NCBI GenBank assembly: GCA_013407085.1
Contig: JACCGJ010025996.1
Location: forward strand, 23,761-87,760
DNA: 64,000 nucleotides
Source: Atriophallophorus winterbourni
Taxonomy: Eukaryota; Platyhelminthes; Trematoda; Plagiorchiida; Microphallidae
Direction: 5' to 3'
Shown here: piece after piece, positions 1,409 through 53,313 of the stretch
Numbering within the stretch: position 1 is the first letter of the stretch
Layout of the letters: each line of letters opens with the position of its first letter
Made by a program: the position numbers and the translations under genes
Notes under the pieces: generated by a model
Databases searched by the model: none
The model's input: only the letters and a program-made list of their open reading frames with translations
What the model was told of the DNA's origin: nothing

Positions 1409-1429
1409 CCAAAATTAAACAAGATACAA
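1409..1429 (+). CDS. Micro-exon, 21 nt
   Basis: A strong acceptor (TATTTTTTCAG) and the donor GTAAGG flank 21 nt reading xKIKQDT in the common phase. It is the first exon visible. No upstream donor with an ATG exon was found in 1-1408, so the gene starts outside the window. Confidence 0.7.
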
Positions 1430-2779
1430 GTAAGGTTTTATTCTGTTATTTGAGCGTGAACCGAACAGTTTTGATATATATATTAAAAAATAGTTGTTGT
1501 GTGTAAGCGCTGGGGATTTGAGCACTGCAACGGCTGTCTATTACCGTTGATTTGATCGATTGTTTTGAATCAAGTGTGTGGATCGTACATGCAAAGGTTG
1601 GTTATGTCAATCTGATCGCCAGGTGGATCCCGGTATAAATTTGTTTACCACATTTTCACTTTCTTGAAGCATACTGGAAATAATCTTATTGTCTCCAGCT
1701 AAGGAGGACAAACAGCTAGAAACCGGTAGTGGTGCGTATGTAAGGGGCTGTTAGCCATTATGTAACTGTTAACTCCTGAACCTGCTATTCAGTCGGTGTT
1801 CGCCGAGCGTACATTCCTTATTCTGGAAGTTATGACATCATGCTAGATGGCACCGTTCGCTGGATTTCTTGAGACGTTCCGGAAAGCACGCGCCATAAAG
1901 GTGAATAAACATGAACTAGCGATGGTTAGGCTGAAGTTTGTTTACTCTCATTGTAAAGCTCGCTGTTTTGCGATTTTGGAGATGTATCAAACGAAAGCTT
2001 TTTCAAATCTAAACAAATAGGGCTAGCACGATAAATCCCTCAACACAATTTTCAACTTTCTAGCTTCTTTTCAATTCTGCTTGAATATATATCGGTTCTG
2101 CTAGAAACGTTTTGTAAAAGAACAAAGTCGTCTTTGATTTGCATAATCAATAGAACTGTTTCTTGCTCGCTATTTGTAACAAATTCATATTGAAGTCATT
2201 TTATGTGCAACTTTCAGCGACACCGGAATTAAAAGGTGAGTTCGTCTTGATAAATACTACTTTTTGAATTTATCAAACTAAGCAATTACCATTCATTCTG
2301 GAGATTCACAAATATGAATTCCAAAATTACAATGCATAAATTCTTGCACATAAACAATTTACCTCAAATCATATCATTCAAAATGGTTCTGTCCGAGGAT
2401 AAAACAATACTTTGGACGCGAATCAGTTATGCAGATGACTGTGAGGAACTGCAAATATATTTTCAAAACGTGTCGGATTGGGCTACTATGAATGATCTGA
2501 CTTTCAACATACGGGAAATCTAGATGGTACATATTGGAAAGGAAGTCTCCTGGACATATCGATAATAAACTGAAAATGTGGCTCGGAGCTCGTTGGGGAA
2601 CGGCCATGAAGTACAGATTAAGGGAAACATGAAGAAGACGATTTCCTTCTATTATATAACTACTGTAGGAGAATGGTCATCTTCAGGTTTCCCTTAATCC
2701 GTATTTCATGGTCTTTTTCCAAAGAGCTCCGAGCCAAATTTCAGTTTCTCATATATAGTATATAATATATAGAGATATA

Positions 2780-2827
<48 letters not shown>

Positions 2828-2843
2828 TAGTATTATATATAGA

Positions 2844-2879
<36 letters not shown>

Positions 2880-3862
2880 GTAATGTATGTATGTATATAA
2901 ATGTGTGTATATGTAATGTAATATTGCCATCTGGCTTCCAAATTTAACGGATTGTATATTGTTTGTATACTGTTCAGCTGTTACAAAGCCCACTGAACCT
3001 AATCCCATTGTCTCCAGCTAATACGGAAAAACAGCTGGAAACCGGTAGTGGTGTATGAGTAAGGAGATGTGAGCCATTATGCAACTGTTAACTTCTGAAC
3101 CTGCTATTCCGTGGGTGTTCGCCGAGCGTACATTCCTTATTCTGGAAGTTATGACATCATGCTAGATGGCACCGTTCGCTGGATTTCTTGAGACGTTCCG
3201 GAAAGCACGCGCCATAAAGGTGAATAAACATGAACTAGCGATGGTTGGGCTGATGTTTGTGTACTCTCATCGTAAAGCTCGCTGTTTTGCGATTTTGAGG
3301 ATGTACCAAACGAAAGCTATTTCAAATCTAAACAAATAGGGCTTGCACGATAAATCCTTCAACACAATTTTCAACTTTCTAGTTTATTTTCAATTCTGCG
3401 GGAATATATATCGGCTCTGCTAGAAACGTTTTGTAAAAGAACAAAGTCATCTTTGATTTGCATAATCAATAGAACTGTTTGTTGCTCGCTATTTGTAACA
3501 ATTTCATATTGAAGTTATTTTATTTGCAACTTTTAGTGACAATGGAAGTGAAAGGTGAGTCCATATTGATAAAATCTTCTTTTTGGAATTATCACATTAA
3601 AAAATTACCATTCATTCTGGCGAATCACAAATATGAGTTCCAAAATTACGTTATTAAAATCTTTCACTTGAACGATTTACCTCAATTCATATCAGCTAGA
3701 AAAGCTAGATGCTGCACTTTGACAACAATGTTGCTGGACATATCGATAACAAACTAAAAATGTGGTTCGGAGGTCGTTGGAAAACGACCATGAAGTACGG
3801 ATTAAGAAAATCTGAAGAAGTATATATATACTTGAAGTGAATCGTCTTTTTCTAGCTTTCTC

Positions 3863-3926
<64 letters not shown>

Positions 3927-6900
3927 TACATACCAGCAGGTTGGTCGGGATCGTTCGAAGAATATTTGGAAGATTCTCACTGGTTACGATATCGAGGATA
4001 ATAAACGTCAATTTGCACACAGCGTTGGAGTATGCGGCTCCTTGGCTAAGAAACTTCATTTCTCACTTTGAATAATTTTATTAATGAGCAGGAAATTTAG
4101 TTAGTACACCAAAGATTGATGTTCCGTACACCGAAAGATTGCGACGTCTGGGTCTATGTGACTTCACCCAATGGTGTATAAGACGTGATATTATTCTGCC
4201 ATATAGAATTGTGTCCAGCAAAGGAAATCAACTCATACAATTGTTTGAAGTGCGTGATGAGAAACTGAAACGTGTTCATTGCCTCATATCTTTATTTCTT
4301 AAGATCCCGTGTTGACAGTCAGCCCGATGTTTTCGCCATACCTGCAAGATTTCTTTGGAATTCCCTATGTGTGGTTGGCGATTCTTGCCCAGCGATATTT
4401 TAATCGAAATTGAACAACATTAGTGATCCTATTATTTTAAATAATATACTCGTCTCATAATGTTGTTTTCCTCTAACGGTTGATGTCTACCATGGATGTA
4501 ATTTAAACATTCGCATGATATTTTTATGTTCCACAATTTCTTAAATGACTGAACATTCCGATTTTGGAGGAAGAATCTCTCTCGCAGCGCTTGCAGCTTT
4601 AGGCAGTACTTCGTTGATCGGAGTATGTGTTTGCATATCTTTATGCTGGAGATAAACTGATGTGTTTTTTTCTTGACCAAATTGGAAAATTTTGATGCTG
4701 TCCCCACTGCTTTCTCGATTAAATCGCATCGGAGCGAGAACATATTATCGACCACTTTTTGAATTTTATCCAAAACAAGTAGATTTATTTTTGTTGAAGA
4801 AATTCCGATTTTTCCATATACGAATTCATTGTTCATGATTTAACCATAGCTACTCGCGGTTGCTTTTAATCTACTGTGACCGAACTTATCCATGCATACA
4901 CTATTCTGGTTTTCTGTTTATACTGTCATGATTTTGATTTATTCTAGCGCATTGGTAAAAAGGGCGAGTCACGGGCAATTAAAAGACACAGAAATCTTGT
5001 CTATTATCAAGCACAAGAGCACAAAGCACATAAATGATCGGCAAATACTCAGAAAACCCACAAACGTTCATTTGAGTAATTAGTTTGTCAAATGTATTTC
5101 AAAAGAAACCAACCGAATGACCTTGTTGGCGTTAAATAAAAACAGGTGATTTATAACTTTTCTGAAACTAGCAACAAAAATGTCTTGTTTCCGGATATTT
5201 TTGCTTGATTGCTCTGGGAGACGTTTTCTACTGATGCGGCTTTGGTCATGTGAATGTTGTTGGCGAAGATTTGGATAGGAAGCTCAGAGTGAACTGTTGG
5301 CTCTTCACTCAGTCTACCACAAACTGATTGCTTGCGTTCTTTCGTGTTTGATATTGACAGAAATAAATTGCTGCAACATCATCTAGTGAACAAAATGCTT
5401 CTCGCTGAATTCGCTTTAGCGGAAACAAAATAGCGACGGGTTGAACAGAACTGACTGGCGAGAAATGATATGAACTGATAAAGTATTGACAAACCGTGCT
5501 GATTCGACGTGAATTTCCCTTCGGCTCACATAGGTTGTTGAAGGATGTACATCACAAGCGCATGTTGGTTTCATCCTGTACAACCTTTCATATCACCAAA
5601 CATTCCTAAATGTGGGGAAAATTCTCACCCTCATCACTCTCAGCGAAACGCAGTACTCATTAAATCCGTGAAAGTTGGACGCTGACAGCGTGATCTACAA
5701 TCAACTTCAACATGATACTTTACACAGCTATTTATTCGAATCGGTAATAAGCAGGAAATGTACAACAAACCACTACATTCAAACAAAAAAATCACAGACT
5801 GATGCCACTGAATCCGCAATGGGTTACATGCAATTTGTCATCATTCGGTATGGACAGTAAGATTAGGTAGAGTGCCTGCGATGCGTTTATATACGTCCAA
5901 TATATGGTGGTGCTCACATCCTTTCTTACGCTGCATTGTATTTGTCTATTTTTATACAGATTTTCCATTTAAATTTGGTACGTTTTTTTAATCAATATTT
6001 TATCAATATCAATGATACATCATTTCATAGAAAATACATATTATAATTTTGCATGTGCTTGGAGACTGTCTCGTTTTTGTCCGATAACGCAATACATTTT
6101 GTTGCTCACATCCTCTCAAACGAATTTTACCATTATCAGGTGAGCCTAGAAAAAATGAAAAATTGTTTAACAATGTTACAATTTGGGACCGGTGAATCCC
6201 AATTTTTATGTTCCAATGAAACTAATCTTCGTGTTTACAACATGACGGTGGCAAATATTCAGAAACTGCTGGTACTGCGCAAGTGTGGTGAGCAATGGTA
6301 CATACTGCTCGTAAAGAAACGTCATGAGTTCTTAAACAACAATCATTTTGTGATTCTGCTTTGTGGAAAACCATATTCAACAGTGAGAGTTTAATTAGTG
6401 ATCAAAACCTGAACCACTTCGTATTGTATAGGGCAGGCTAATTTAGTTTTGATGCGTTGTTCAAATCAAGACCAAATGGGATAACGTCAATCACGTTGTT
6501 TACACATGCTTCAGGCCACTCAATTCAAAACTAACCACCAGCCCTTCGCGTTACACTAAGGTCAACGCGTCCACACAAATGACTTCGATTGGTCAAACGC
6601 GTTTATTACACACAAGACAAAGAACAAACGACAGGCCCATCTTATACAGTAAATCATGTAACCACAACCGTGAACCAAAACATGTTTATCCCGGGAGTAA
6701 CTTCGATCTGATTTGGCAATCGATTTTATGGCAACTGGTATGCTACTAGGTTTAACACACGTTTCGTTTAACAAAAGTTGATAAATTGCATATCGTTCGG
6801 TCGTAGCTGAGAATGTCCATCTTCTTATACTACTGAAGATGATGTTGCTTCAAGTGTTCGAATGCAATCATTTCCAAAACACGACATATTATGACACCTC

Positions 6901-9900
6901 TTCTTCCTCTCCTGTTGTACCAAAGGGTAATGTTCAGTATATCGGAATTAGCACTAAGCTTGAGGATACTTCGTACTAAGACAACACAATAAAAGTTAAT
7001 TTTCGTTCAAATTTAATTAAACATAAGAACATTGTCCTCATAAAGTTCAATTCTTCCGTCTACAGAGGACTTCCAACATGGAGAACACTTAACAAGTAAG
7101 TACCAGTTCAGAATGTACGATGATTTTTATTTTGAATACAAAGTTTCCTCACAATTCGATTTTCAAATTGTCATTTTCACTCTTGTATACATGGTATATC
7201 CAAGCATAACACGTGATGCTATCTGAAATGTGAAAACTGTTTGTGCTACCTGTAATCCATTTTAACTCTTTTCATCTTTTTAGCTATGAAATATGATCGC
7301 GGTAATTATGAATAGCATGCATTTTATGTTTTCGCAAAAATAACAATTCACCTATTTTTACAGATTTCATTGTCGATCGACCGATCGATCGACTTAATAA
7401 TGAGACCATTTTTCCAAAATGACTTGTAGAACAATCATTTTCACGCATATTTTCTATCTTATGGATTATTGAAGAAGAGTTCTTCTCTATGTCGAGTTGA
7501 TTTTTGGCGGTCGACATTTGGGATGTACGCAATTGCGTAACGTTTGGATAATCGTTTTGAAACCTGTCGACATTTACCATACAAGTTCAGACATACTTTC
7601 TCTAGACCGCTCAGTTTGAAGGCACTGTGCGAGGCGTCACCTGCGAACTGTTAGGGATCAGATACTGCATTTCACTGTTGAAGGTATCCACGACATCTGG
7701 AAAATACCGCCGATCGACTGATTGATACAAATTGCAATGCGCGATAGCAAATGGAACTGTTCCATCATGTGAGACGCTAAGGATCATGAATTCCCGTGCG
7801 CTTGCAATGCACATCCATGGTCATCTGCGGAAGGTAATTTGCAAGAGCGTAACATTCAAAATTATAGGAATTATTCTATCCGTAACCTAGTCCACTATCT
7901 AGTTGATCTAATTATTTGAATTTTAAAATAAAATCACTTTCAAATTTTCGGCAATAATTTTACCTGAAATGTTTGATATCCATGATAATAACAAAAATTG
8001 ACACACTTTTCCCTTTTCGTGAAATGACGCTTCATACTATGCTCAAAATTAAACAGTCAGGAGTCAGTTCTTCTCAACTCGTCTGATCTATGTTATGAGC
8101 TAGCATATCTATCTTACAACCGTCATTATACCGTGATTTTGAACTTCCGAATTTTCTGCCGTTGCTTTAAGAATAAGACATTTAGGCGGTATTGAACAGC
8201 ACATTATTTTGAAATCCATCAGTTCCTCGAGTTCATTAAACATCGTTTAAACATCGTGTTTCGTGTTACGAACCCTAATCAACAGTGGCTCAAAATAGTT
8301 TTGTTTATTTGTGTGATAAAACATGACCTAGCAAAATTATGCGATAGTATTTCAATGAAATAAACGTTCTCTTGATACCAGCTTCAGAATTCGATAAAGT
8401 ATCTTACTCTGTTCATGCACCATGTGTTCAACATATGACCTACGAAGGAAATGTATTACGTATGATCATACGAAAAGCATCATATTTATTCCAACTGTCT
8501 GCATGTAAACCCAACAGACACCGGGGTTCGAAAAGATCATATTCACACTTTTGTTGTCATTACGATTATTTATATCACTGTGTTCGACAGGTTATCCGCA
8601 AGATATATGTAAAAATAAAATAAAACAAGCTGAGAGATGGAGATATAATTCCTTGGTTGACTAATTGGTCTGCTTCACGCTGGCAGTCAGCCCGCAGATG
8701 GCGCATGCCGTAAAGGTTTTCATTAGTGACTGAAGTTGCTCTTATGATTAAGCTATATTGGCTCTATCACGTGACTATGTAGATATCTACAGTTTTGAAA
8801 CTCGGGCGTGTTCTGCACATACAATCATATTGTGAGGGGCAATGTGATTACGTTGATTGCACCTGTTTCAAGGTCCAACGTTAATCACGCACCCCAGATA
8901 GTCACACAGTTGACTATTGGCTTAATTCATCACAGGTACCAAACTTTCCAACGCTATTTACGTGTTTACTGTGCACATGACAACAAACATCGTACACCTA
9001 CCTCAGGTCGACAAAGCACGTCAACACTACACTGTCCTCAATATGTCCATGCAGGATTTTGTTTTCAACAGATTTGTTAATCCATTTCATGCAAACTTGT
9101 TCGATTCAATTTTAATTTTTACTGTATAAAAATCATATGGTTTTACTAAAATATCATGGAATAATAAGGAAACTACGAATAATATAACAAGCATTAACGG
9201 GTTTTGATTTGCTTACTGAGCAGTTTAAGATTCAGGTAAAAATCCAAAGTGTAGAAATTGTTTTCGTTTGGACTTGTAGATACATAGGATCAGAATGTGC
9301 AGTTATGGGTCAAAAAGCCATCAAGATTTCACCTAAACATAGGTTTATTTAGTGCGAATACAACATATTCGGGTAGATTGTTTCGCGTAAATTAATAACG
9401 CACCTCAAAAGCTATTCTGCAGTCAAGTCGTGAGTAAGGAACAATTATAGTTAACGTTTGAGCTCTTGTCTTATGCAAGCAACCTGTAATAATTAATCAT
9501 TGTAAAGGGTGATTTGCAGTAGTCAAACATTATAAACCAAAATAAAATTCCTCAGAAGACGAAGGCGTGGATGATTGAATGATATTATGGTTGAGATTCG
9601 CACATTGTATGATTTCCACGTGTGTATAGCGAAACATTTAGTAGCTTCATGGTAATTTCTTTCAAATTCGCAACATATCTCTAAAGCTATGACGACTATG
9701 TTTGAAATGTTTTGTGAGTCTGATGCACATATTCATTATTCGAAGAATTGTCTTTTTGCGAACCACATGAAAATCTTCTTTAGATGGAGACTTTTTGTGA
9801 CGTTTTCCGGTAGACGGAGAAGCAGTGGCTCGACATCCAAAGACTGTTGCTTATGAGCGCGTATAAGTCCTTCTTTTCCATCATGAACGCAAGTCTGTGT

Positions 9901-24329: not shown

Positions 24330-24377
<48 letters not shown>

Positions 24378-26409: not shown

Positions 26410-26449
<40 letters not shown>

Positions 26450-38382: not shown

Positions 38383-38455
38383 ATATCTATCTCTCTATCT
38401 ATCTATCTATCTATCTATCTCTCTATATCTATCTATCTATCTATCTATCTCTCTA

Positions 38456-38506
<51 letters not shown>

Positions 38507-38551
38507 ATATATATATATCTATATATCTATCTATCTATCTATCTATCTCTC

Positions 38552-38618
<67 letters not shown>

Positions 38619-47526: not shown

Positions 47527-47558
<32 letters not shown>

Positions 47559-50500
47559 AGAACAACGAATCCCACAACACATGCAAAGCCAGTTGATCAA
47601 ACGGTTACATGATAAAAGCAAAACAGTTTACTACCTTGTAGATCTGTAAATGACATAAATACCAGGCAGTCAATAACTTTTCGTTTTTAGTTGTCTTTTC
47701 GATTTGATTTCTTTATCGATTTCGTGCCAAATGTTTCACTTCAAGCGCTCAAATTCCTGGTTTCGTTTGACTGAACATGATTAATTTTATAGCATTCGAT
47801 ACCGACTGGCATTGGTCATATTCTTATGCTTCCGAGAATATTTTTGTTTTAAGTGTAAACATCCCATCATTCATAAACCCACATTATCCCGGGTTGGCTT
47901 CTGACTATTCAACGCTTGCGGCTGTTGTATTGAGTCGGATGTTCGTGTTAGTTTCGACAGATATTCAATAGGTAATTGTGAACCTAAACACACAATAACA
48001 TCTAAAAGTAAGAGGACCTTTCAAACCATCGTGAAATAATAAGCAGTATTCGTTTGGATGAGAAAACAAACAGTATCAGGTCAGTTCCTCCGATCGGACA
48101 CACTGTAGCCTAAGACCGTTGAACCTAACAGGCTTTCAATTGTATCTACTCATGAGTAGCAGCATCGTCGAAATATTTACGATAATTATCACGACTGCGA
48201 CATGGGGCTACAAATCGCGATTCATTGTTCAACCGGCACCAAGAAATTTTTCATTTTCCATTTATTCAACCGATTCGCTCATTTTATAGGCATTTTATTT
48301 GCTGAATGCGATGTTGATAATGTAAGTATCCCTTTCATATTAAACTAAAAAGTAAATTTAAACCGGTAAAAAATTATCAAACGGAATTTTCAATACTGGA
48401 AACCGCTTTATTTCGTTTGTATGATTTGTTTTATTGAAAACCCTTGAGAATAGGTTTGTTTTCTCAAAATAGACCTCTTTAAATGAATATAAATCTCTAA
48501 GTAACATATTGGATCAATTTGTCCGAAATTTGCTAGTTTGCTCTAGTAGCTGCTGCTCAATAAGTGAGAGTTGAAACATTTGCAGATGAATTTTTAGGGG
48601 AGGCTGATTCCCAACTAAACTTAAATACAGCTACATGTTTCAAGGTTCTTTCCCCAGCATTCAGCAATTGTGAAAAACGTTTCAGTTATTATTTATAGTG
48701 TGTTAGATGACTAAAACGTTAAATTGAACATTTTCTGAGGCAACAGTGTTTACTTTAGCATGCCTACTGTCATGGAGAATCAAGCAATCGTTCAATTTCC
48801 CATCTGTTAGCCAAACTATTCTCATTGCCTCCAGAGGAATACTTGAAACAGCTGAAGCAGGAAGTGATGCATAATCCCAGCGGGTTTGAACACTCCATAA
48901 ACGAATTACCTAAGCGCATTCTAATTAAACATGCACTACATAATGAATCCAAATTAAAAATGTTTTTTTTTGTTTTACATACGATATTATGTCGGTTTCA
49001 ATCAGCCAGAATTCCTATTCAGTCTTACATAGTTGTTTGGCCACGTCTGAGACAGGTGGAGCGACGAAAGTAACAAATGCTTTTACCTCATACAACGTGC
49101 ACAGCAGGCGACCAAGTCATACATATTTGGAAATACTACTCACGATGATATATGTGGATTTTTAAAATGTTCAAAAAAAAACCAGAATCTTTTAGGCGGT
49201 ATTTGAAGAATATGTTGTTTATATTTATGACTACTCATCCGTGCCAAGCCCATCGAACTATTCACAAAATTCATCACGGCGGCCTATAATGGAAGCACTG
49301 GACTCGAGTTTCGCTCTTAGTTGAGCACATCAGCAGTGCATTTCTTCCGCTTCAAGTGGGACTCCAACCACCGACTATCACCATTTTAGTCCCACTCTTT
49401 AACAACCTGGGCTACCGTCCACCGTTTGATCGATCGCAATTAAGGGTTTATGAACTGTTCTCCAGACTGGCACATTTGAGTAGCTTTGTTCGCCTGACAA
49501 GTTCAAAAAGAGCCAGCAAGATCTGTTGTGGTCACCCAACCGAACATATCTCCGTGTCAGGACATCCCATCTCATACAGTGTAATCTAACACTGATTAGA
49601 TCTGATGGGCATTGTTGTTTAAGCGGTGTTTGAAGAATGTGTTGTTTATATTTGTGACTACTCATCGGTGCCAAGCCCATCGAACTATTCACAAAGTTGA
49701 TCACGACGGTCTAAAACATTTGCTACTTGATTAGCAGTCACTCATTAATTCTGTATTTAACCAAACCTAGTTAACAGACTGGCTGGAAGTAAAATTGTTC
49801 CGAGTGGGGAGATAAAACCGGAAATGATTGAGTCAGGTCATTACAGGCCTACGAGCGGTGGCTGACAAACATTTGGCCTCCTGTCGAATCAGTCGGGTCA
49901 TCAGTTCAACAACGACCACGTTACCCCACTTACTTACTCACTTTTACTTTTGTGCGACTATCTCATCCTGGAGGATGAGTCGGCTTGGTTGACGTCACAG
50001 ATTGCAACCACTCATGATCGGCGATTAGAAGCCAGATCCGCGCATATTCTAAGCCAGGCCCGGTCCCACGTGCGCCATCCGTAAACCGATCCTAGACCAA
50101 CAGCTCCACATCCGATCTCACGGTGTCGAGCCAATTCTTCACTTGTCCTCCGCTACGACAACGCCATCCTGCGCAGGGTGTTGGCGATAGTTTCACCCTG
50201 GTTAGTTCAGCGTCCGAGCGTCTCAGGATGTAGCCATACTATCTCTGTCGGTGTTGTCGCAATATCGAACTCAGGCGAGGGTTATCAAATGAACTATGGG
50301 GAACGTCGTCATTCGTTTCTCGCTCATCCCATCGAACACTAAGGATGCGTCGGAGACACCAGCGATCGAAAACCTCTAGTTACCACACCCGCGCTTCAGA
50401 GCCAATTCAAGATTGCACCCGATTCATCGCTGAGGCCAACCGCGTGTACCCACGAGCCCACAATCACTTTGTGATTCTGTGTCTAAACATCGTGGTTCGT

Positions 50501-53313
50501 TGTACAAGCAAAACTTTGTTTAACACTTTAACACTGTTTCAAGTCTCACTAAAGCTGATCTTACTGTCTCCACCTGACGATGGCAAACAGCCAGAAATCG
50601 TTAGTGGTTTGTAAGGGACAGGGATGTGAGCAACACATTACTTTGGTCATCCATAAGCGCCTTGCGTGCTTGACCAAGAATCACATTGTGATTCTGTGTC
50701 TGAACATCGTGGTTCGTTGTACGAACCCTATATAACAGTGGCATACAAGTATAACATTGTTCACCAATTTACCACTATTTCAAGGCTCACTGAACCTGAT
50801 CTTACTGTCTCCAAACAGCCAGAAACACATATCTTATAAGGTGCAACTCAAACAACCACAACACTGTTCTGAACTATGTCTGTCCAGGTTGTCACTTCGA
50901 TCTGGTTTGTCTTTGATTCTCGTGACAGCCGGTACGCTTCAAGACGTCCTGACTCTGGGCTTGTTTAACCGACCTCGACGAAGTTTCACATGTCTTTTAA
51001 CGTTCTCCATGTGTGCATGCTTTCGAAGATGTTTTCGCTTGAACGCTTCTATTATAATCTTCCTCGTACCTCCACAATATCATGTCGCCACGAGGAATAC
51101 GAAAAGCGAGTGGCGCGTATGTGATCAATTTGAAACCATGTCATTTCCATTTATTTGATTGGTTTACTTGATTACATTGTGTTGGTCTTTCTTTCATAGC
51201 ATGGGTGTGCTAGGATGGCTGTCAATTGTTTGAGGCAATAACTTATAATTTGCTTCCGTTGACTTAAATTAATCTCGCTGTCTTTACAATATGGGTGAAT
51301 GCATGTGGTGTATGTGATGGAACGAAATTTAAAACAATTATTCATCATTTTGCATGACTGAACTGACGATCTGATTTCCCATGATATTTACCTTGAAACA
51401 TTATTCCGTTTTTGCAGAATAAAATTGAGGTTTACAAACGTAAGTCTATTTTTGAAATTGAAATAACATTAATTAAACCGTTTAACAGCATTCTGGAAAT
51501 CGTGTTTTAATTCCTTTTTTATGATTTTATGCACAATACATGAGATTGAAGCATCAATTTGATTAACCTAACCAAGATTACCTTTAATGCAAAAATGAAG
51601 GACCTAACGAATTATCATAGAATTATCAATTGTACGTATCACTCAGAACATTATCGCGTGTATCGTACGTCAAGCTAGACCATTTGGATTATTTTTATAT
51701 ACATTAAGCCAAACAATGCCATACTGCAAATATTTTCATTTGCATTTTCATAGCACAGACACATCCCACGCTTTCGTTCTGTTCGCGCTGATCAAGTGGG
51801 AACAGTACGATCAGGATTCGCTAGCCTTGAAATCTTATATTCCATACCTAATTACCGTTATTTACCTTATTGCAAAGATGGATTAGCAGGCTTCATTGAT
51901 GACTCCATTCATGTTATCCCTAGGATATTTTTGGAGACAAGATAGTTGAAGAATATTGTCTATCCAACTTCCTAACTACAACTATCGTAATGGGTCCAAG
52001 GGTATCTTCATCGTCACCTTACGTTTGACAGCGGAGTCTTCATTTACGCACCGTTGCTAATAACGTGTGGTGTAAGGATTGAGAAATCTGTCTTTTAAAG
52101 GCTTTGTACAAATCAAGTTGGTAATTGCCGATAAAATTAAATTTGAGGAATTATTCCACTGAATCTGCGAAGTTGGATACTCCAACCTTTATTTATAACA
52201 AATCATTTTGCAATTAACGGTAGATTATGCTATCAATAAAATCGATACTATATGATCCCATATAAATTCATACAAACACAGAAGTGCGTCATGGCAACAC
52301 CTAAGCCTTGACTTCGTTTCAATTTTCGTTTCAATAGCGGAGTAGACGAAGACGAAAGGATGATCAGTTTGAGATCTATGTGCTCTTATCTGCTCCCGTT
52401 TTTACAGCGAAATAGCTGATACGTAGTGTATATCAGATATACAAAGTACCATAAAATATTAATACGTAAAATTAAAGTAACAAATGAATTACGCTTAAAA
52501 TAGATTTTCGATGTATACACGATAGAGAAACGATCATTTGATGGCGAATCATTCAATTAAGTCACATTTTTCGAACGCGTCACGGCAGATTGTTCTATGC
52601 CAAGTAAAACAGGCACAGGCAGAATAAAAATTACGCTTGTAGTTTAAGATCCAGCACGTTCCAAGTTCAATAGGTCTTTCTGGGTTCGAATCACGCGTTT
52701 ATTCCACTTTTATAAAATTTACATTAAGCTGGCCCATGCTATGGCAAGTGTGCAGCGACGTTTTGGAAAGAGAAGCAATAAACTCGGCATTAGCTCTACG
52801 AGTTGGGAGTAAACGTGTTGTTGATGGTGCCCTTTGCAGATACTGTGTGCTAGATAGTGCTCGCAGCGGCCAACTATACTTCACATCGTCAGCGTAAAAA
52901 GCGGCCAAGCAGTCGAGTACTGTCTATCGTTACGAGCGCTGCGAGAGAGAGATTGTTTCTCACGTAACTAAATGTTTGATTGTTTCAAACTCCGTAAAGC
53001 GTACAACCAACATGCGCTTGTGATGTACATTTATTTTCAACCTCGATCAAATGGAGCCCAATGACGACGACGACAACAGCAACGAGTGGTAATGGCAAAC
53101 ATTGTCGTTTTGAAGCGTGCGGATCGATTTCTAAATTAAAGATTATTGTAAAAGCCAATCTTATCGCAATCTTCCAGTGTATTATTTTTGATTTGTTGAA
53201 AAGAGCTAACTGCTCCATCAATTTTCATGTTTACCCGAGCGCTATGAATAATCTTTGAAATAAACATGCATCTTCACAAATCAATTTACACTGCACTTGA
53301 ATTTTCAGAATAA
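1409..53313 (+). CDS. Candidate micro-exon gene (multi-exon; 5' end outside window)
   Basis: Span of a spliced gene; exons are listed separately. Seen directly: about 30 short segments preceded by an AG acceptor, usually with a T-rich tract, and followed by GTAAG, GTGAG or a similar donor. Lengths run 6-39 nt and are multiples of 3, except a 32/22 nt pair that sums to 54. All are open in the same phase (2 nt + codons + 1 nt), and several have stops in the other frames. The first exons found were picked on splice sites alone; weaker ones were also filtered by phase. Joined coding length is about 630 nt, ending Q-stop at 53311-53313 with AATAAA at 53346. The joined protein has at least five Cys and an N-F-T sequon, so it is probably secreted or surface exposed. 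Established knowledge: schistosome MEGs have this architecture, usually encode secreted proteins and are alternatively spliced. Inference: this is such a gene. No family is recognised, and no start codon or signal peptide is in the window. Confidence 0.8.
1691..1735 (+). ncRNA. Degenerate hammerhead-ribozyme SINE core, copy A
   Basis: GTCTCCAG, then CTAAGGAG in place of CTGATGAG, the loop base pattern ACAAACAG, GAAACC and GGTAGTGG. Core positions are mutated, so it is probably inactive. Confidence 0.5.
2218..2235 (+). CDS. Micro-exon, 18 nt (tandem-duplicated, copy 1)
   Basis: Acceptor GCAACTTTCAG and donor GTGAGT. With the A of the previous exon it reads TTPELK. It lies in a ~1 kb segment duplicated at 3010-3870. 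Confidence 0.75.
2395..2545 (+). pseudogene. CR1-like RT fragment (YADD)
   Basis: Reads YADDCEELQIYFQNVSDWA, then NDLTFNI and, after a stop, MVHIGK. This is the RT active-site block and the following Trp-Ala...Leu-F-N region of CR1-like ORF2. Short relic, no flanking ORF2. Confidence 0.6.
2572..2746. repeat. Imperfect long inverted repeat (hairpin)
   Basis: GTGGCTCGGAGCTCGTTG..CATGAAGTA.AGATTAAGGGAAAC at 2579-2629 is mirrored by GTTTCCCTTAATCCGTATTTCATGG..AGAGCTCCGAGCCA at 2685-2736. A single arm recurs at 3760-3812, so it may be a foldback element. Confidence 0.6.
2755..2876. repeat. (TA)n microsatellite
   Basis: Interrupted TA dinucleotide run at the foldback edge. Confidence 0.9.
3010..3054 (+). 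ncRNA. Degenerate hammerhead-ribozyme SINE core, copy B
   Basis: Copy of A from the tandem duplication: GTCTCCAG, CTAATACG, AAACAG, GGAAACCGGTAGTGGT. The conserved CTGATGA is lost. Confidence 0.45.
3537..3554 (+). CDS. Micro-exon, 18 nt (tandem-duplicated, copy 2)
   Basis: Acceptor GCAACTTTTAG and donor GTGAGT. It reads VTMEVK in phase; the zero frame opens with TGA, so only the common phase works. It differs from copy 1 at 5 of 18 bases, all changing the amino acid, while much of the flanking duplicated sequence is near identical. Confidence 0.75.
3866..3926. repeat. (TA)n microsatellite
   Basis: TA run at the matching place in duplication copy 2. Confidence 0.9.
4100..4415 (+). pseudogene. 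CR1-like LINE ORF2, C-terminal relic
   Basis: Reads VPYTERLRRLGLCDFTQWCI, matching the Pro-Tyr-x-Glu-Arg-x-x-x-Leu region after the RT, then IRRDIIL. In another frame it reads FAIPARFLWNSLCVVG. Frames break near 4310. No intact element. Confidence 0.65.
4440..4840 (-). pseudogene. RTE-like LINE C-terminal zinc-finger relic
   Basis: The - strand contains CKRCERDSSSKIGMFSHLRN followed by C-G-T-stop, a form of the CxxC...RIG..SH.R.C finger that ends RTE-like ORF2 proteins. The conserved 3'UTR block with CCATGGTAGACATC follows. The same block recurs at seven places in the window. Confidence 0.65.
4841..5959. other. Intronic DNA, nothing recognised
   Basis: No splice-flanked phase-1 segment and no LINE similarity seen. 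Short open frames look random. Confidence 0.4.
5960..5977 (+). CDS. Possible micro-exon, 18 nt
   Basis: Acceptor CTATTTTTATACAG and donor GTACGT, a weaker donor. It reads DFPFKF in phase. Accepted partly because length and phase fit; it could be an AT-rich coincidence or an optional exon. Confidence 0.4.
5978..7065. other. Intronic DNA with degraded repeat pieces
   Basis: 6095-6375 shares phrases with the hammerhead SINE unit (GCTCACATCCT, TTTGTGATTCTG). 6590-6620 (CGCGTTTATTACACAC) recurs near 46405, probably a LINE 3' end on the - strand. Confidence 0.4.
7066..7095 (+). CDS. Micro-exon, 30 nt
   Basis: Acceptor CTTCCGTCTACAG and donor GTAAGT. It reads EDFQHGEHLT in the common phase; another frame has a TAA. 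Confidence 0.8.
7096..9180. other. Intronic DNA, nothing recognised
   Basis: An open - strand frame at 7611-7814 is followed by a short CATCCATGGTC motif shared with the RTE 3'UTR, but I could not assign it. 7374-7392 is a short (GATC)n palindromic run. Confidence 0.4.
9190..9790. repeat. Dispersed repeat, related to 42900-43200
   Basis: Shared phrases in the same order: CTTGTCTTATGC/CTTGTCTAATGC, GACGAAGGCGTGGATGATT/GACGACGACGTGGATAATC, GATTCGC.CATTGTA, TAGTAGCT.CATGGTA, TCGCAACAT. No coding capacity recognised. Confidence 0.6.
10419..10424 (+). CDS. Possible micro-exon, 6 nt
   Basis: A very strong acceptor (ATGTTTTTTAG) is followed by GCGAAA and the donor GTAATT. It would add S-E. Exons of 6 nt are known in schistosome MEGs, but six bases carry little evidence. 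Confidence 0.3.
11097..11123 (+). CDS. Micro-exon, 27 nt
   Basis: Acceptor TTTTTATTTCACAG and donor GTGAGA. It reads ITFKDGKDT in the common phase. Confidence 0.8.
13022..13036 (+). CDS. Micro-exon, 15 nt
   Basis: Acceptor GATTTTTCATAG and donor GTAAGT. It reads NTVTF in phase. Confidence 0.75.
14017..14037 (+). CDS. Likely micro-exon, 21 nt (NAGNAG acceptor)
   Basis: Acceptor GTGTTTCTTCAG is followed directly by TAG, giving a CAG-TAG tandem acceptor, and the donor is the weaker GTGTGT. The 21-nt form reads VEATKIF; use of the second AG gives 18 nt. Both keep phase. Confidence 0.5.
14726..14740 (+). CDS. Likely micro-exon, 15 nt
   Basis: Acceptor TTTTTGTATTTAG and donor GTAAAC. It reads DKPKK in phase. 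Confidence 0.55.
15050..15200 (+). ncRNA. Hammerhead-ribozyme SINE core, copy C
   Basis: ACTGTCACTACTTGATGAG, stem GTGC, loop AAACA, GCAC, GAAACC, then AATAGTGGGG. Stem II is a perfect 4 bp and the GAAA is intact, but the first C of CTGATGA is T. Confidence 0.6.
15393..15430 (-). repeat. CTGACGA...GAAACG motif repeat (R), copy 1
   Basis: The - strand reads GTCTGACGAAGCTTCTGTG, then a partly complementary arm, GTGAAACGTTACCC. Conserved with three other copies in the window. Confidence 0.5.
15800..15838 (+). CDS. Micro-exon, 39 nt
   Basis: Acceptor TTTTTTGATAAAG and donor GTAAGT. It reads GFKLKFNEPTLQH, the longest exon seen. Two later AGs inside it would give 31 or 25 nt and break phase, so the first AG was chosen. 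Confidence 0.75.
15928..15951 (+). CDS. Micro-exon, 24 nt
   Basis: Acceptor GATTTTTCCAG and donor GTGAGT. It reads VGTATFRT. The intron before it is only 89 nt, the shortest in the gene. Confidence 0.85.
16054..16068 (+). CDS. Micro-exon, 15 nt
   Basis: Acceptor TACATAATTTCAG and donor GTAAGA. It reads LDPVE. The preceding intron is about 100 nt. Confidence 0.8.
17080..17290 (+). repeat. R repeat, copy 2
   Basis: GAACTCAGAATTGGTCAAG, GTCTGACGAAG, GCGGAACGTTACCCG, then TTTTCATGATTATGAACTCC. Closely matches 42185-42380. Confidence 0.7.
17544..17570 (+). CDS. Micro-exon, 27 nt
   Basis: Acceptor TTTTTTAATGATTCAG and donor GTAAGT. It reads ITNSKKPVN in the common phase. Confidence 0.8.
17707..17736 (+). 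CDS. Micro-exon, 30 nt
   Basis: Acceptor TGTATTTTCACAG and donor GTAAGT. It reads IMLSQSNVVH. The intron before it is 136 nt. Confidence 0.85.
18100..18480 (+). ncRNA. Degenerate hammerhead SINE unit, copy D
   Basis: Contains TTTACCACATATCCACTGTTTCAAGGCTCAC, then ACTGTATCCAACTAATGACG, AAATAGCC, GGAACCCGGTAGTG and TGAGCAACACATTA. The order matches the unit at 50560-50640. The core is mutated. Confidence 0.5.
18850..18858 (+). CDS. Micro-exon, 9 nt
   Basis: A strong acceptor (TTTTTTGCTTTCACAG) and the donor GTAAGC surround nine bases reading FFY. Confidence 0.65.
19020..19690 (-). pseudogene. RTE-like LINE relic (3' part)
   Basis: The - strand 3' end carries the block CCATGGTCGACATCCACC. Further upstream it has GTGAAATCTGGACCATCC, equivalent to the SETWTI region. 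Many stops. Parallel to the clearer copy at 45480-46430. Confidence 0.5.
19980..20190 (+). pseudogene. RTE-like terminal zinc-finger relic
   Basis: Reads FRCTRCGRDVSS, stop, IGLLSHSK: the CxxCGRD...IG..SHSK finger with one stop. Eroded 3'UTR follows. Confidence 0.6.
20361..20384 (+). CDS. Micro-exon, 24 nt
   Basis: Acceptor TTTTCATTTTTAG and donor GTAAGT. It reads PNFKKSPI. Confidence 0.8.
20600..20617 (+). CDS. Doubtful micro-exon, 18 nt, inside a perfect hairpin
   Basis: CAG acceptor and GTAAGT donor in correct phase (ILHQQN), but the pyrimidine tract is poor. The acceptor AG and donor G sit in the arms of a perfect 9-bp inverted repeat (20597-20618, loop ATCA). It may be chance or an optional exon. 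Confidence 0.3.
21330..21770 (+). pseudogene. CR1-like RT relic
   Basis: HYADDKSTWR, then after stops NKSMLSFGRSLNT and later KNRSV, stop, GVMK, matching the F-x-D-D, N-K-(C/S)-..-L..G and N-R-..-GV(M/L)K landmarks of CR1 RT and thumb. Multiple stops and frameshifts. Confidence 0.55.
21930..21944 (+). CDS. Likely micro-exon, 15 nt (Cys)
   Basis: Acceptor GTACACCCTCAG and donor GTGAGT. It reads NVMCT. A stronger-looking acceptor ends at 21879, but that would give 65 nt and break phase. Confidence 0.55.
22317..23110. repeat. Dispersed non-coding repeat, related to 33940-34260
   Basis: Shared motifs: AGGTG.AGTTAAATC, AACGGGATT, TTTGCAATCGTT and G.AGCCACT. Family unknown. Confidence 0.45.
23111..24223. 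other. Intronic DNA, nothing recognised
   Basis: No phase-compatible exon or LINE similarity seen. GC is higher around 23740-23900, without a recognisable family. Confidence 0.35.
24224..24253 (+). CDS. Micro-exon, 30 nt (Cys)
   Basis: Acceptor TATCTCTTGAACAG and donor GTAAGT. It reads KGKKCTGLLI. Confidence 0.8.
24332..24377. repeat. (TA)n microsatellite
   Basis: Nearly uninterrupted TA run shortly after the exon at 24224-24253. Confidence 0.9.
24640..26370. other. Intronic DNA with a SINE-like fragment
   Basis: 24680-24800 shares phrases with 18113-18215 (GCTCACA, CATCAG.TGGA.AC, GTTTACC) and belongs to the hammerhead SINE unit. The rest is unrecognised AT-rich sequence. Confidence 0.4.
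26371..26385 (+). CDS. Micro-exon, 15 nt
   Basis: Acceptor GCTTTGCTAACAG and donor GTAAGT. It reads EPIRI. It shares an 8-base core (CAATCAGA) with the next exon. Confidence 0.7.
26408..26447. repeat. (TA)n microsatellite
   Basis: TA run between the two CAATCAGA micro-exons. Confidence 0.9.
26798..26812 (+). CDS. Micro-exon, 15 nt
   Basis: Acceptor TCGCTTACTACAG and donor GTAAGT. It reads GTIRD. Same length and phase as the exon 412 bp upstream, with a shared CAATCAGA core, so possibly an exon duplicate. Confidence 0.7.
26865..27436 (-). mobile_element. GC-rich retroposon with intact target-site duplication
   Basis: Perfect 14-bp direct repeats TATGTATTTTGTGT flank the insert (26851-26864 and 27437-27450). 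The left edge is an ATT-rich run, which on the - strand is a 3' (AAT)n tail, so the element lies on the - strand. The interior is clearly GC-richer than its surroundings. No RT motif is seen; it is either a SINE or a 5'-truncated LINE end. The intact duplication indicates recent insertion. It sits in the intron after the exon at 26798. Confidence 0.75.
27451..29836. other. Intronic DNA
   Basis: Apart from the hammerhead core at 28594, no recognisable gene or element. Confidence 0.35.
28594..28660 (+). ncRNA. Hammerhead-ribozyme SINE core, copy E
   Basis: CCCCTAC, CTGATGAG intact, loop AAACAGCC, G-T-AAAC (one inserted T), then CGGTC followed by GTGGGC. Stem I can pair CCTAC with GTGGG, and GGTC is a good cleavage site. 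Stem II is mutated. Confidence 0.6.
29837..29860 (+). CDS. Micro-exon, 24 nt
   Basis: Acceptor GCTCCTTTCCGCAG and donor GTGAGC. It reads QSGERDYL. Confidence 0.8.
30060..30370. repeat. Dispersed repeat, related to 34740-34980
   Basis: Shared phrases: TATGCAATT.GT, GTCAAA, GTCGGNACGAAATCGA, GAAGTGA. No protein motif recognised. Confidence 0.45.
30652..30666 (+). CDS. Micro-exon, 15 or 9 nt (alternative acceptors)
   Basis: Two acceptors six bases apart (GAACAG and TTTCAG) share the donor GTAAGC. The long form reads VSDAM and the short form (30658-30666) DAM. Both keep phase. Confidence 0.65.
   Translation, partial: FQTQ
30667..32220. other. Intronic DNA, nothing recognised
   Basis: Open frames of up to 124 codons (31139-31513) show no family feature and are overlapped by - strand frames. 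No exon boundary fits the gene's phase. Confidence 0.35.
32245..32271. repeat. (ATT)n microsatellite
   Basis: Short ATT run immediately 5' of an RT relic. Confidence 0.85.
32272..32430 (+). pseudogene. CR1/jockey-like RT fragment (GVLQG)
   Basis: Reads LQYMVVNGKRSHAI, then PIPRGVLQGT. This matches the MQYTAVNGKVSN...ISRGVLQGA region of the LINE at 35151-37410. Short relic of that family. Confidence 0.6.
32815..32942 (+). repeat. Direct repeat pair, copy 1
   Basis: ATATGAATAAAAATGTGAAA, ATATAATAGTATAAAA and GCATATATAAG-like segments match 34270-34385 closely. Confidence 0.75.
33727..33744 (+). CDS. Micro-exon, 18 nt (Cys)
   Basis: Acceptor GATTTTTAACACAG and donor GTGAGT. It reads RCAIGQ. 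It lies between two copies of a ~125-bp direct repeat (32815 and 34270). Confidence 0.75.
34270..34390 (+). repeat. Direct repeat pair, copy 2
   Basis: Second copy of 32815-32942, about 1.46 kb downstream; the exon at 33727 lies between them. Confidence 0.75.
34978..37420 (-). mobile_element. CR1/jockey-like LINE A, 5'-truncated
   Basis: On the - strand: the C-terminal part of an endonuclease (IGNSDHC near 37180), linker, RT, thumb and a 3'UTR. It ends with CGAATAAAG, then a (TTC)n tail, seen on + as (GAA)n at 34978-35036. The same 3' end occurs at 42110-42165. The reading frame is broken several times, so it is not autonomous. Confidence 0.8.
35151..37410 (-). pseudogene. LINE A ORF2 (EN remnant + reverse transcriptase), broken
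   Basis: Reading 5' to 3' on the - strand: endonuclease tail (37410-36944), with a stop before the linker; RT fingers SKAAGPDNLSPLLLKE (36904-36227); a one-base frame change into PDSWKPVRITPIPKI; another into YRPIACTSQLLKVLES and CLLDYTNAFNSV (36426-36097); then ISRGVLQGAILSP and the catalytic YADDIDVV (36058-35459); then C-terminal segments to 35151. The Asp pair of the active site is intact, but at least four frame breaks make it a pseudogene. Confidence 0.8.
37421..37640. other. Intronic DNA between LINE A and RTE relic
   Basis: Nothing recognised. Confidence 0.35.
37641..37860 (+). pseudogene. RTE-like terminal zinc finger and 3' end
   Basis: Reads CQRCGRDCSFRIGLFSHSKN followed by C-K-T-stop, the intact CxxCGRxC...RIGL.SHSK.C finger. 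The 3'UTR CCATGGTCGACATCGACAG and an AACAAAAACA tail follow. The upstream ORF is missing, consistent with extreme 5' truncation. Confidence 0.75.
38093..38119 (+). CDS. Micro-exon, 27 nt
   Basis: The acceptor is AAAATTTAG after a C/T-rich stretch; the donor is GTAAGT. It reads FSYNEETKQ. An alternative acceptor at 38033 would give 86 nt with a stop. The TCTA microsatellite begins about 100 bp downstream in the intron. Confidence 0.7.
38218..38650. repeat. (TCTA)n microsatellite, ~430 bp
   Basis: Long TCTA tetranucleotide array with TTTA and TCTC variants. The long open frames over it encode only Leu/Ser/Ile/Tyr repeats and are artefacts. It starts ~100 bp after a micro-exon. Confidence 0.95.
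38760..39200. other. Intronic DNA, repeat fragment
   Basis: AATTGTCACAG..GCACCAGGTAACGATTG resembles part of 33930-33970. Otherwise nothing recognised. Confidence 0.35.
39221..39272 (+). ncRNA. Hammerhead SINE core, copy F (tandem pair, unit 1)
   Basis: CTCAGTTGATGAG, stem GTGC, loop AAACA, GCAC, then GAATCC. Stem II is intact; the C of CTGATGA and one A of GAAA are mutated. Confidence 0.55.
39443..39492 (+). ncRNA. Hammerhead SINE core, copy G (tandem pair, unit 2)
   Basis: GTCCCTAC, CTTTTGGGT, ACAAACAGCCC, AAAACCGGTCGTTCG. It lies about 220 bp after copy F and retains ACCGGTC around the expected cleavage site; the catalytic CTGATGA is lost. Confidence 0.5.
39570..39790 (-). repeat. R repeat, copy 3 (LINE B 3' side)
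   Basis: - strand: GAACTCAGGATTGATCAAG, TTCTGACGAAGCTTCTG, loop TGTT, CAGAAGCGAAACGTTACC, ATAACCGATTCATTGCAAAC. The stem GCTTCTG/CAGAAGC is a perfect 7 bp. Inverted relative to copy 4 at 42185. Confidence 0.75.
39876..41995 (-). pseudogene. CR1-like LINE B ORF2 (partial EN + RT), broken
   Basis: - strand. Starts inside the endonuclease at GDFNLPQ and includes SFLDLV and GRSDH. Then a linker (41990-41091), a decayed junction, RT with YRPITMLPCILRIMERI, YIDISKAFDKVDHSLLL and SGVPQGSVLGPILF (41041-40379). A one-base loss in a T homopolymer shifts the frame just before FADDIKIWKQIR, and one stop follows (QK-stop-LD). The thumb and C-terminal part (40364-39876) ends with VPYQEQMAILGLCDFIRR. The 5' half and ORF1 are absent. 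It is not the same subfamily as LINE A. Confidence 0.8.
42005..42166 (+). mobile_element. LINE A-type 3' end, opposite orientation
   Basis: Ends ACTGAAAATTCGTTTTAACG, then AATAAAG and a (TTC)n tail, matching the LINE A terminus (34978-35080 read on -). It abuts the truncated 5' side of LINE B. Confidence 0.65.
42175..42400 (+). repeat. R repeat, copy 4
   Basis: GTGAACTCAGGATTGGTCAA, TTTGACGAAGCTTCTG, CAGATGCGAAACGTTACC, ATAACCGATTCATTGCAAAC, TTTTCATGATTATGGACTCC. It ends 66 bp before the exon at 42466. Confidence 0.75.
42466..42498 (+). CDS. Micro-exon, 33 nt (Cys)
   Basis: Acceptor AAATCTCTTTAG and donor GTACAT. In the common phase it reads CWYLTRGKDYK; the zero frame has a TAA. Confidence 0.7.
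42584..42601 (+). CDS. Micro-exon, 18 nt
   Basis: A strong acceptor (TTAATTTTTTTAG) and the donor GTATGT surround 18 nt reading DGTEPM. The intron before it is 85 nt. Confidence 0.7.
   Translation: MALSR
42900..43210. repeat. Dispersed repeat, related to 9410-9700
   Basis: Ordered matches to the copy near 9.5 kb; no protein motif. Confidence 0.6.
43564..43572 (+). CDS. Possible micro-exon, 9 nt (N-glycosylation sequon)
   Basis: Acceptor AACTATTTTTAG and donor GTTAGT. It reads NFT, an N-x-T sequon whose Asn codon is split across the splice junction. Confidence 0.45.
43573..45147. other. Intronic DNA
   Basis: Only the doubtful exon at 44373 noted; nothing else recognised. Confidence 0.35.
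44373..44405 (+). CDS. Doubtful micro-exon, 33 nt
   Basis: Acceptor TTCTTTGCGAAG and donor GTGAGT. It is open in phase (VLNKLWLSRLS), but the AAG acceptor is weak. Confidence 0.3.
45148..45168 (+). CDS. Likely micro-exon, 21 nt
   Basis: The acceptor ACAACTAAAAG is weak; the donor GTAAGT is strong. Only the common phase is open (ADKKVTI); the other two frames contain TGA. Confidence 0.5.
45470..46440 (-). pseudogene. RTE-like LINE ORF2 C-terminal relic
   Basis: - strand, with stops: ATKMMVQSVCVVNA, GSETWTI, AKHERKLNALDLRSILRI, DKVTNAGVLSQAGI, LRQRCLRWLGYV, then the terminal zinc-finger remnant HRIRLLSHSK and the 3'UTR CCATGGTCGACATCGACC. The landmark order (SETWT, RLRW-LGH, terminal finger) is that of RTE-like ORF2 after the RT domain. 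The RT itself is missing. Confidence 0.75.
46441..47330. other. Intronic DNA, nothing recognised
   Basis: A 109-codon frame at 46784-47113 (+) shows no recognisable feature. Confidence 0.35.
47331..47576 (+). pseudogene. RTE-like terminal zinc finger with (CAA)n tail
   Basis: Reads RRRATDADRLNSAYR, then CESCGRDFHSRIGRLSHSKS and C-E-T-stop: an intact terminal finger. The 3'UTR ATGGTCGACATCGACAGAAG and a (CAA)n tail (47528-47572) follow. The best-preserved 3' end of this family here. Confidence 0.8.
47577..49200. other. Intronic DNA
   Basis: Contains the 32-nt exon at 48290. A phase-open 36-nt segment at 47972-48007 has weak splice sites and was not called. Nothing else recognised. Confidence 0.35.
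48290..48321 (+). CDS. Micro-exon, 32 nt (phase-changing; Cys)
   Basis: Acceptor GCTCATTTTATAG and donor GTAAGT. It enters in the common phase and ends on a codon boundary, reading RILFAECDVDN. Its asymmetric length is compensated by the 22-nt exon at 51418. Confidence 0.7.
49203..49320 (+). repeat. Dispersed repeat, copy 2 of 3
   Basis: TTTGAAGAATATGTTGTTTA, CATCCGTGCCAAGCCCATCG, ATGGAAGCACTGGAC. Matches 1-115 and 49624-49712. Confidence 0.75.
49624..49712 (+). repeat. Dispersed repeat, copy 3 of 3
   Basis: Direct repeat of 49203-49292, about 421 bp downstream, so the pair brackets a short segment like small terminal repeats. Confidence 0.75.
49840..50450. repeat. GC-rich dispersed element, unidentified
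   Basis: Clearly higher GC than its surroundings, with CTTACTTACTCAC followed by phrases such as GGCTTGGTTGACGTCACAG. It looks like transposon-derived UTR, but no coding motif was seen. Confidence 0.4.
50460..50850 (+). ncRNA. Tandem hammerhead SINE units, copies H and I
   Basis: Copy H (50560-50612): GTCTCCAC, CTGACGA, stem TGGC/GCCA, GAAA, TCGTTA, GTGG. Stem I can pair CCAC with GTGG. Copy I (around 50793) has the same lead-in TGATCTTACTGTCTCC but a deletion of the catalytic strand. The units are about 233 bp apart and both include TGTGATTCTGTGTCT.AACAT and CGTGGTTCGTTGTAC. Confidence 0.65.
50851..52690. other. Intronic DNA
   Basis: Apart from the exon at 51418, no element recognised. Confidence 0.35.
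51418..51439 (+). CDS. Micro-exon, 22 nt (restores phase)
   Basis: Acceptor TTCCGTTTTTGCAG and donor GTAAGT. It starts on a codon boundary (NKIEVYK) and leaves one base. With the 32-nt exon it totals 54 nt, so the two must be spliced together. Confidence 0.7.
52699..53075. pseudogene. LINE-derived fragments (unclassified frame plus RTE finger relic)
   Basis: A - strand frame (52699-52908, AAFYADDVKYSW...) has no recognisable RT context, so its YADD may be chance. On +, 52920-52995 keeps parts of the RTE finger (YRYERCERE, SH, remnants), followed by an eroded 3'UTR. Confidence 0.45.

Follow-up and report, generated by a model that had tools for sequence, protein, structure and literature searches.

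What kind of gene, if any, is encoded by a stretch of DNA in which tiny splice-flanked open segments recur over more than 50 kb? We addressed this question for a 64-kb stretch, called the window throughout, which corresponds to C15785:23761-87760 of a 537-Mb assembly. The answer that we reach is that the window very probably carries most of one member of a micro-exon gene (MEG) family in a digenean fluke, its exons being predicted. The best explanation overall, to which we assign a probability of roughly 0.85, is that of a MEG family member with host-driven change of its cassettes and with symmetric exons that could be skipped.

The splice-site weight matrix behind our exon model was trained on exons of the gene copy in the window (G1) itself, and the controls that count are those in which AG-exon-GT segments were scored with a generic consensus, set by hand from general knowledge. 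With this generic consensus, the strong candidates in the whole window were distributed by length modulo 3 (0:1:2) as 28:8:6 on the plus strand and as 11:11:5 on the minus strand. When the best candidate of 6-39 nt per cluster was taken from the plus strand of the first 53.3 kb (1-53.3 kb), 23 of 28 were divisible by three (binomial p 1.5e-7), and all 23 were open in one common phase (the other two phases had 13 and 16 open). The same scan of the minus strand returned 16 candidates, eight divisible by three and seven open in that phase. Masking of repeats, for which the mask was drawn by hand from repeat searches after the candidates were known, left 26 candidates on the plus strand (22/2/2 by length modulo 3, with 22/22 open in one phase) and 13 on the minus strand (6/5/2, six open). 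Among 40 unmasked Markov-1 sequences, open multiples of three averaged 2.9 and reached a maximum of 6. Because the minus-strand counts are small, it is the Markov control and the paralogous genes described below that carry weight. The predicted exons of G1 are the following, with positions counted in the window unless the contig is named.

C15785:13841-13901, plus strand: exon 1, signal-peptide exon, 61 nt (hydrophobicity and donor score)
C15785:13983-14003, plus strand: exon 2, micro-exon (scan of upstream sequence)
C15785:16406-16426, plus strand: exon 3, micro-exon (scan of upstream sequence)
C15785:20196-20234, plus strand: exon 4, micro-exon (scan of upstream sequence)
C15785:23007-23036, plus strand: exon 5, micro-exon (scan of upstream sequence)
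1409..1429, plus strand: exon 6, internal micro-exon, 21 nt, phase 1 (splice scoring, paralogs)
1667..3694, plus strand: tandem duplication carrying the exon pair 2218/3537; copies 1667-2376 and 2986-3694, 89%
2218..2235, plus strand: micro-exon, 18 nt, tandem duplicate of 3537 (splice scoring, paralogs)
3537..3554, plus strand: micro-exon, 18 nt, duplicated in tandem with 2218; G3 has one copy only
5960..5977, plus strand: micro-exon, 18 nt (splice scoring, paralogs)
7066..7095, plus strand: micro-exon, 30 nt (splice scoring, paralogs)
7284..7301, plus strand: micro-exon, 18 nt (splice scoring, paralogs)
10419..10442, plus strand: micro-exon, 24 nt, weak donor gtattttt (recognised via paralogs)
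11097..11123, plus strand: micro-exon, 27 nt (splice scoring, paralogs)
13022..13036, plus strand: micro-exon, 15 nt (splice scoring, paralogs)
14017..14037, plus strand: micro-exon, 21 nt; in G2 17 nt with an in-frame stop
14726..14740, plus strand: micro-exon, 15 nt (splice scoring, paralogs)
15928..15951, plus strand: micro-exon, 24 nt; G2 version 30 nt
16054..16068, plus strand: micro-exon, 15 nt; four of four whole-codon residues changed in each paralog
17544..17570, plus strand: micro-exon, 27 nt; G2 version 28 nt
17707..17736, plus strand: micro-exon, 30 nt (splice scoring, paralogs)
18850..18858, plus strand: micro-exon, 9 nt (splice scoring, paralogs)
20361..20384, plus strand: micro-exon, 24 nt; donor GT lost in G3
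21930..21944, plus strand: micro-exon, 15 nt, conserved Cys (splice scoring, paralogs)
24224..24253, plus strand: micro-exon, 30 nt, conserved Cys; G2 version 24 nt
26798..26812, plus strand: micro-exon, 15 nt (splice scoring, paralogs)
29837..29860, plus strand: micro-exon, 24 nt (splice scoring, paralogs)
30652..30666, plus strand: micro-exon, 15 nt; donor is GC in G2
32547..32558, plus strand: micro-exon, 12 nt (splice scoring, paralogs)
33727..33744, plus strand: micro-exon, 18 nt with a conserved Cys; no difference among G1, G2 and G3
42584..42601, plus strand: micro-exon, 18 nt; no G2 counterpart found, fourfold in tandem in G3
48290..48321, plus strand: exon, 32 nt, phase 1 to phase 0, conserved Cys
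51418..51439, plus strand: exon, 22 nt, phase 0 to phase 1
53309..53313, plus strand: terminal exon, coding part; completes the last codon, then TAA

All but one of the 22 masked-scan candidates are exons of this final model, the remaining one (10419) having been found with the right acceptor and the wrong donor; exons 14726, 32547 and 42584 were missed by the generic scan. Several other candidates were set aside. Those at 1699, 3018, 24738 and 39236 lie inside a dispersed repeat that occurs many times in the window and were dropped from the model, those at 8793 and 20600 do not hold up in the single paralog in which they have a match, and the one at 18493 fails in both. At 24738 and 39236 the splice dinucleotides and the open frame are kept in both paralogs; as these stretches are 95-96% identical between paralogs (83% for 24738 in one of them), they are too similar to decide, which leaves the two unproven but not disproved, and they could be exons derived from the repeat.

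Taken together, window and upstream contig sequence give a gene of 33 predicted exons and 63,233 bp whose reading frame runs uninterrupted from ATG through 243 codons to TAA. It starts at C15785:13841, 9.9 kb 5' of the window, and ends at window position 53313, with an AATAAA at 53346, 3' of the TAA. Between the 61-nt signal-peptide exon and the stop exon lie 31 internal exons of 9-39 nt, of which 29 are symmetric, that is, multiples of three flanked by phase 1 introns. The window itself holds 27 internal exons (9-32 nt) and the stop exon in a single reading frame. Thus, the roughly thirty tiny exons in one phase that the initial annotation had proposed are borne out by the bias in length and phase, by the controls and by two paralogs, and its statement that all lengths are multiples of three in one phase stands for the 29 symmetric exons and falls for 48290-48321 (32 nt) and 51418-51439 (22 nt), which are non-multiples of three complementary in phase (1 to 0 to 1). 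Other figures had to be corrected. The gene had been taken to extend over 1409..53313, but its start lies outside the window, with five exons upstream; its coding DNA in the window amounts to about 0.56 kb rather than 0.63 kb; and the window encodes four Cys instead of at least five, since the fifth came from the repeat-derived candidate 39236, now left out. The whole gene does have five, because an upstream exon contributes one.

The signal-peptide exon that the initial annotation had expected upstream was found once the upstream contig sequence was extracted. It is a 61-nt exon that begins with ATG, encodes a predicted hydrophobic leader and lies 81 nt 5' of the first upstream micro-exon; TATATAA occurs about 40 nt 5' of its ATG. 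The signal peptide was called from hydrophobicity only, and the exon from hydrophobicity and donor score, but the leader peptide is the same in three genes, and the exon differs at 1, 1 and 0 of 61 nt in the three pairs. Farther upstream of G1, C15785:1-12000 holds tandem units of about 4.7 kb, 94-99% alike and with starts 4701 and 4704 nt apart, that contain reverse-transcriptase fragments, and a similar array lies 5' of the leader exon of one paralog, G3.

The paralogs provide the independent test. Two full ones, G2 on the minus strand of C14303 and G3 on the plus strand of C2386, are colinear with G1 across the gene, and each contains 30 of its 31 internal exons. The exon-flanking AG is kept in 30/30 and 30/30 cases and the GT in 29/30 and 29/30, one GC donor in G2 and one GT lost in G3 being the exceptions, against a baseline of 65-74% for AG/GT dinucleotides in the flanking introns. 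Four Cys are common to all three genes. Although 5' and middle probes of G1 detect three loci only in the assembly, three 3'-end probes also match C14303:129502-147135 on the minus strand (at 147.1, 132.4 and 129.5 kb), where another copy, arranged in tandem with G2, is represented by its 3' part; the 5' part of this copy would lie towards or beyond the contig end. The family thus has at least four copies, two of them in tandem on C14303, with about thirty exons of 9 to 42 nt. Around the equivalent of window 42500-42775, G3 carries four tandem copies of the exon 42584 region, which encode the same exon peptide.

This architecture is that of a MEG. As described in PMC5825161, PMC4015677 and PMC4699917, MEGs have a signal peptide, devote about 75-80% of their coding region to symmetric exons of 6-36 nt and generate variants through exon skipping; MEGs are also reported in tapeworms, with a numerical definition (PMC7653826). 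G1 falls within that definition with its 33 predicted exons, 29 micro-exons and a run of 29. Its symmetric internal exons, excluding the 39-nt one, account for 573 of 732 nt (78%), in agreement with the figure of about 80% in PMC5825161. The first exon encodes a predicted signal peptide, the same in all three genes, and the host, judged by the COX1 of the assembly, belongs to the Platyhelminthes.

How might such a gene work? We propose that the short, promoter-proximal leader exon provides secretion, as predicted, and that the mature part of this small protein would be built from thirty exchangeable cassettes of 2-13 residues that subdivide its surface, with the four shared Cys holding the fold. 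Since exon boundaries follow the first codon base, almost any cassette could be lost, gained, extended by codons or duplicated with the remainder of the protein left intact. Selection at the host interface, where MEGs are characteristically expressed in gland or epithelium and to which this protein may be exported if the MEG literature is a guide, would alter the cassettes while the introns drift at the ordinary rate, and skipping of any of the 29 symmetric exons could yield further variants in frame. The structural and comparative features of this scheme, namely the chain of predicted exons, its conservation in paralogs, the leader, the gain and loss of cassettes and the duplication of exons, are shown from the sequence.

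Judging from exon lengths alone, 29 of the 31 internal exons could be skipped without loss of frame, and we consider the chance that G1 regularly skips exons, by analogy with known MEGs, to be about even. The strongest competing view, which has a real though lesser chance of being right, holds that all exons are always spliced in, the cassettes being an inherited architecture and diversity arising only through gene duplication and sequence change. Indeed, shared Cys or strong conservation mark exons 21930, 24224, 33727, 48290 and 51418, pointing to a folded domain that depends on every one of these, and skipping either the 32-nt or the 22-nt exon by itself would break the frame. The symmetry of 29 of 31 internal exons speaks against constitutive splicing, as does the exon skipping that PMC4015677 reports for the Schistosoma mansoni genes MEG-1, MEG-2 and MEG-3.

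Alignable introns in all three genes offered a reference for the rate of exon change. Exons differed at 169/638, 213/648 and 170/623 positions (0.27-0.33) in the three pairs, which are not independent of one another, and the unfiltered flanking introns at 1109/7861, 1226/7859 and 1090/7677 (0.14-0.16). Divergence in the exons is therefore about double that in the adjoining introns, while exon order, phase and splice sites are kept. The intron comparison was done in three ways, with filtered flanks, with unfiltered flanks and with matched windows free of gaps. After removal of poorly aligned flanks, 23/30, 28/30 and 26/29 exons exceeded their own flanks; 19/25, 26/29 and 22/25 exceeded the mean of matched gap-free intron windows, although only 7/25, 14/29 and 10/25 individually exceeded 95% of such windows. 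Variable columns in the three-way alignment made up 189/489 in exons versus 1287/6155 in introns (Fisher p 1.2e-17). Duplicated exons within single genes behaved in the same manner: the exon differed at 5/18 positions versus 41/382 in the flank within G1 (p 0.044), and at 7/18 versus 47/377 within G2 (p 0.006). Coding pieces that outpace the DNA around them are what one would expect of proteins engaged in an arms race with a host.

The faster change of the exons is observed directly, and we infer selection from it. Codon tests by themselves do not prove positive selection: NG86 dN/dS was 1.52, 0.89 and 1.38 for the three pairs, and in none was pN confidently above pS (bootstrap P(pN<=pS) 0.063, 0.694 and 0.089). 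One could instead attribute the divergence to a locally raised rate, through hypermutation or conversion from other copies, rather than to host-driven selection. This explanation draws on the NG86 silent divergence of exons (pS 0.188, 0.352 and 0.222), which is above that of introns in all three pairs, and on the 5, 16 and 12 codons with three differences, where 2.3, 6.3 and 3.2 are expected binomially. Against it, four-fold sites, counted in codons whose first two bases agree, changed in 2/26, 7/28 and 5/34 cases, a total of 14/88 that is near the intron rate; this suggests, on small numbers, that multiply changed codons inflate the NG86 silent estimate. Moreover, the two intron bases adjoining exons are near-invariant (0.000 and 0.011) and the ordinary intron rate prevails beyond them, so the divergence drops to the intron level or lower at the very edge of the exon. 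The signal-peptide exon is unchanged and some exons, such as 33727, are identical in the three genes. We thus regard a raised rate as improbable and host-driven diversification, judged from sequence divergence, as the probable cause. A special form of the former idea, that short cassettes are rewritten by locally raised mutation or by conversion among a larger pool of copies within an alignable intron scaffold, is a long shot, but if true it would make the set of about thirty cassettes a means by which surface variation evolves, over and above what splicing offers.

That the exons are relics of a decaying or non-coding family is very unlikely, although G2 lends this notion some substance with its 17-nt exon containing a stop, its 28-nt exon, its GC donor and one exon for which no counterpart was found, and G3 has lost the GT of one donor. 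Two G2 exons break the frame, where the intron indel rate predicts 4.0, and two others change length in frame (24 to 30 and 30 to 24). Because of these exons and the single non-GT donor in each of G2 and G3, not every copy need be functional. In contrast, G1 is open through all 33 exons, and between G1 and G3 no frame-breaking length change occurs in 648 exon nt, where the intron indel rate predicts 4.1; the sole length change, from 39 to 42, is in frame. Conserved splice sites and a conserved signal peptide likewise argue against decay and for a coding MEG.

Database searches recovered no recognised family, in keeping with the earlier view of a micro-exon gene of a family that was not recognised. 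A partial query of 186 aa, of limited sensitivity because the N-terminus and exon 10419 were missing from it and the doubtful exon 39236 was still part of it, was searched against a protein database that includes nr and UniRef entries; 19 candidates shared words with it, and none appeared at E up to 10. The same partial query gave no sequence match to named MEG families. Scans with Rfam and for tRNAs yielded 0 hits each, NCBIfam returned 0 families for the joined piece, and Pfam and PDB returned solely a sub-threshold phosphatase lookalike. On the basis of these searches, in which no relative was recognised, the predicted MEG family is new. Elsewhere in the window, at 57361-59781 on the minus strand, a LINE element contributes an 806-aa reading frame for endonuclease and reverse transcriptase, which matched 49 proteins at E up to 1e-10 among 8000 scored, the best being 53% identical.

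The lookalike raises the thought of a conserved enzyme, for example one with a tyrosine-phosphatase-like domain, cut into micro-exons. Residues 102-128 of the joined piece match Pfam Y_phosphatase2 (E 0.0057, 16.7 bits) and PDB 6byf appears at E 1.5, but the Pfam score falls short of the curated threshold (27 bits), the phosphatase loop lacks its arginine, and G2 and G3 do not retain the glycine and TG residues that match, which makes an enzyme scarcely credible. The weak P-loop likeness to tyrosine phosphatases spans window exons 20361-30666 read together.

The identity of the host comes from the COX1 gene of the assembly, which reads through 543 codons without a stop under the flatworm mitochondrial code. 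Among the best 120 of 8000 matches, the closest was Prosthogonimus cuneatus (79%), a member of the Microphalloidea in the Xiphidiata, followed by other digeneans at about 70% and below and by Schistosoma at 63-65%. Because its COX1 is nearest to Prosthogonimus, the host is a digenean but not a schistosome, contrary to the schistosome-type host that the initial annotation had in mind; that the window contig comes from the same animal as COX1 rests on the assembly. Further COX1-like stretches occur on contigs C4746, C4859, C8922, C10138, C11485, C15234 and others; most have standard-code stops and are possibly nuclear mitochondrial copies or foreign DNA.

In the literature that we could search, mostly beyond subscription journals and in part only, we found no paper on MEGs in Microphalloidea, no comparison of MEG exons with their own introns and no paper with the phrase that exons evolve faster than introns; the genome paper on Atriophallophorus winterbourni does not use the term 'micro-exon' in its main text. 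Most knowledge of MEGs comes from blood flukes, and little is understood of what they do. A complete comparison of three genes in a fluke far from schistosomes, in which each gene brings some 60 kb of alignable intron as an internal neutral reference, makes the long-standing idea of MEG evolution under host pressure testable exon by exon. The same approach is usable in other flatworm genomes, where gene finders miss MEGs.

The last contender, an aphid bicycle gene or a member of some other insect effector family built in this way, is close to refuted by the digenean COX1 of the assembly unless the contig is a contaminant, even though a structure-only bicycle classifier with coefficients from PMC9168663 gave a logit of 18.36, far over the cut-off. 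Because the architecture is shared, such a classifier trained on aphids cannot separate MEG from bicycle genes. We know of no sequence shared between bicycle genes and G1, and the likeness is one of architecture, not kinship, which points to convergence. Like G1, bicycle genes are split into numerous very small internal exons, of which almost all begin at codon position 2, and like the G1 family they are rapidly changing putative effectors; they are typified by two CYC motifs, belong to a different phylum and average about 17 exons versus 33 (PMC9168663).

SmVAL6, a VAL gene with a MEG-like tail, resembles G1 in having many exons, 38 in all, among them a series of small symmetric ones (PMC4350168 and PMC4015677), but it has conserved SCP-domain exons, whereas no Pfam domain was found in the joined piece of G1. 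From schistosome MEGs, G1 differs in having no sequence relative detectable with the partial query and in its host, a digenean near Prosthogonimus rather than a blood fluke; compared with the MEGs described there, its signal-peptide exon of 61 nt and the coding part of its last exon are also short. In schistosome MEGs, PMC4350168 finds dN/dS to be higher in the mature part than in the signal peptide (it exceeds 1 in three families) and records an enrichment of transposable elements around the genes, and both patterns fit the G1 family. The MEGs of schistosomes and tapeworms, as these reports describe them, share with it runs of symmetric exons, a 5' signal peptide, a small protein and paralogs, together with a conserved signal peptide, a fast-evolving mature part and transposable elements nearby.
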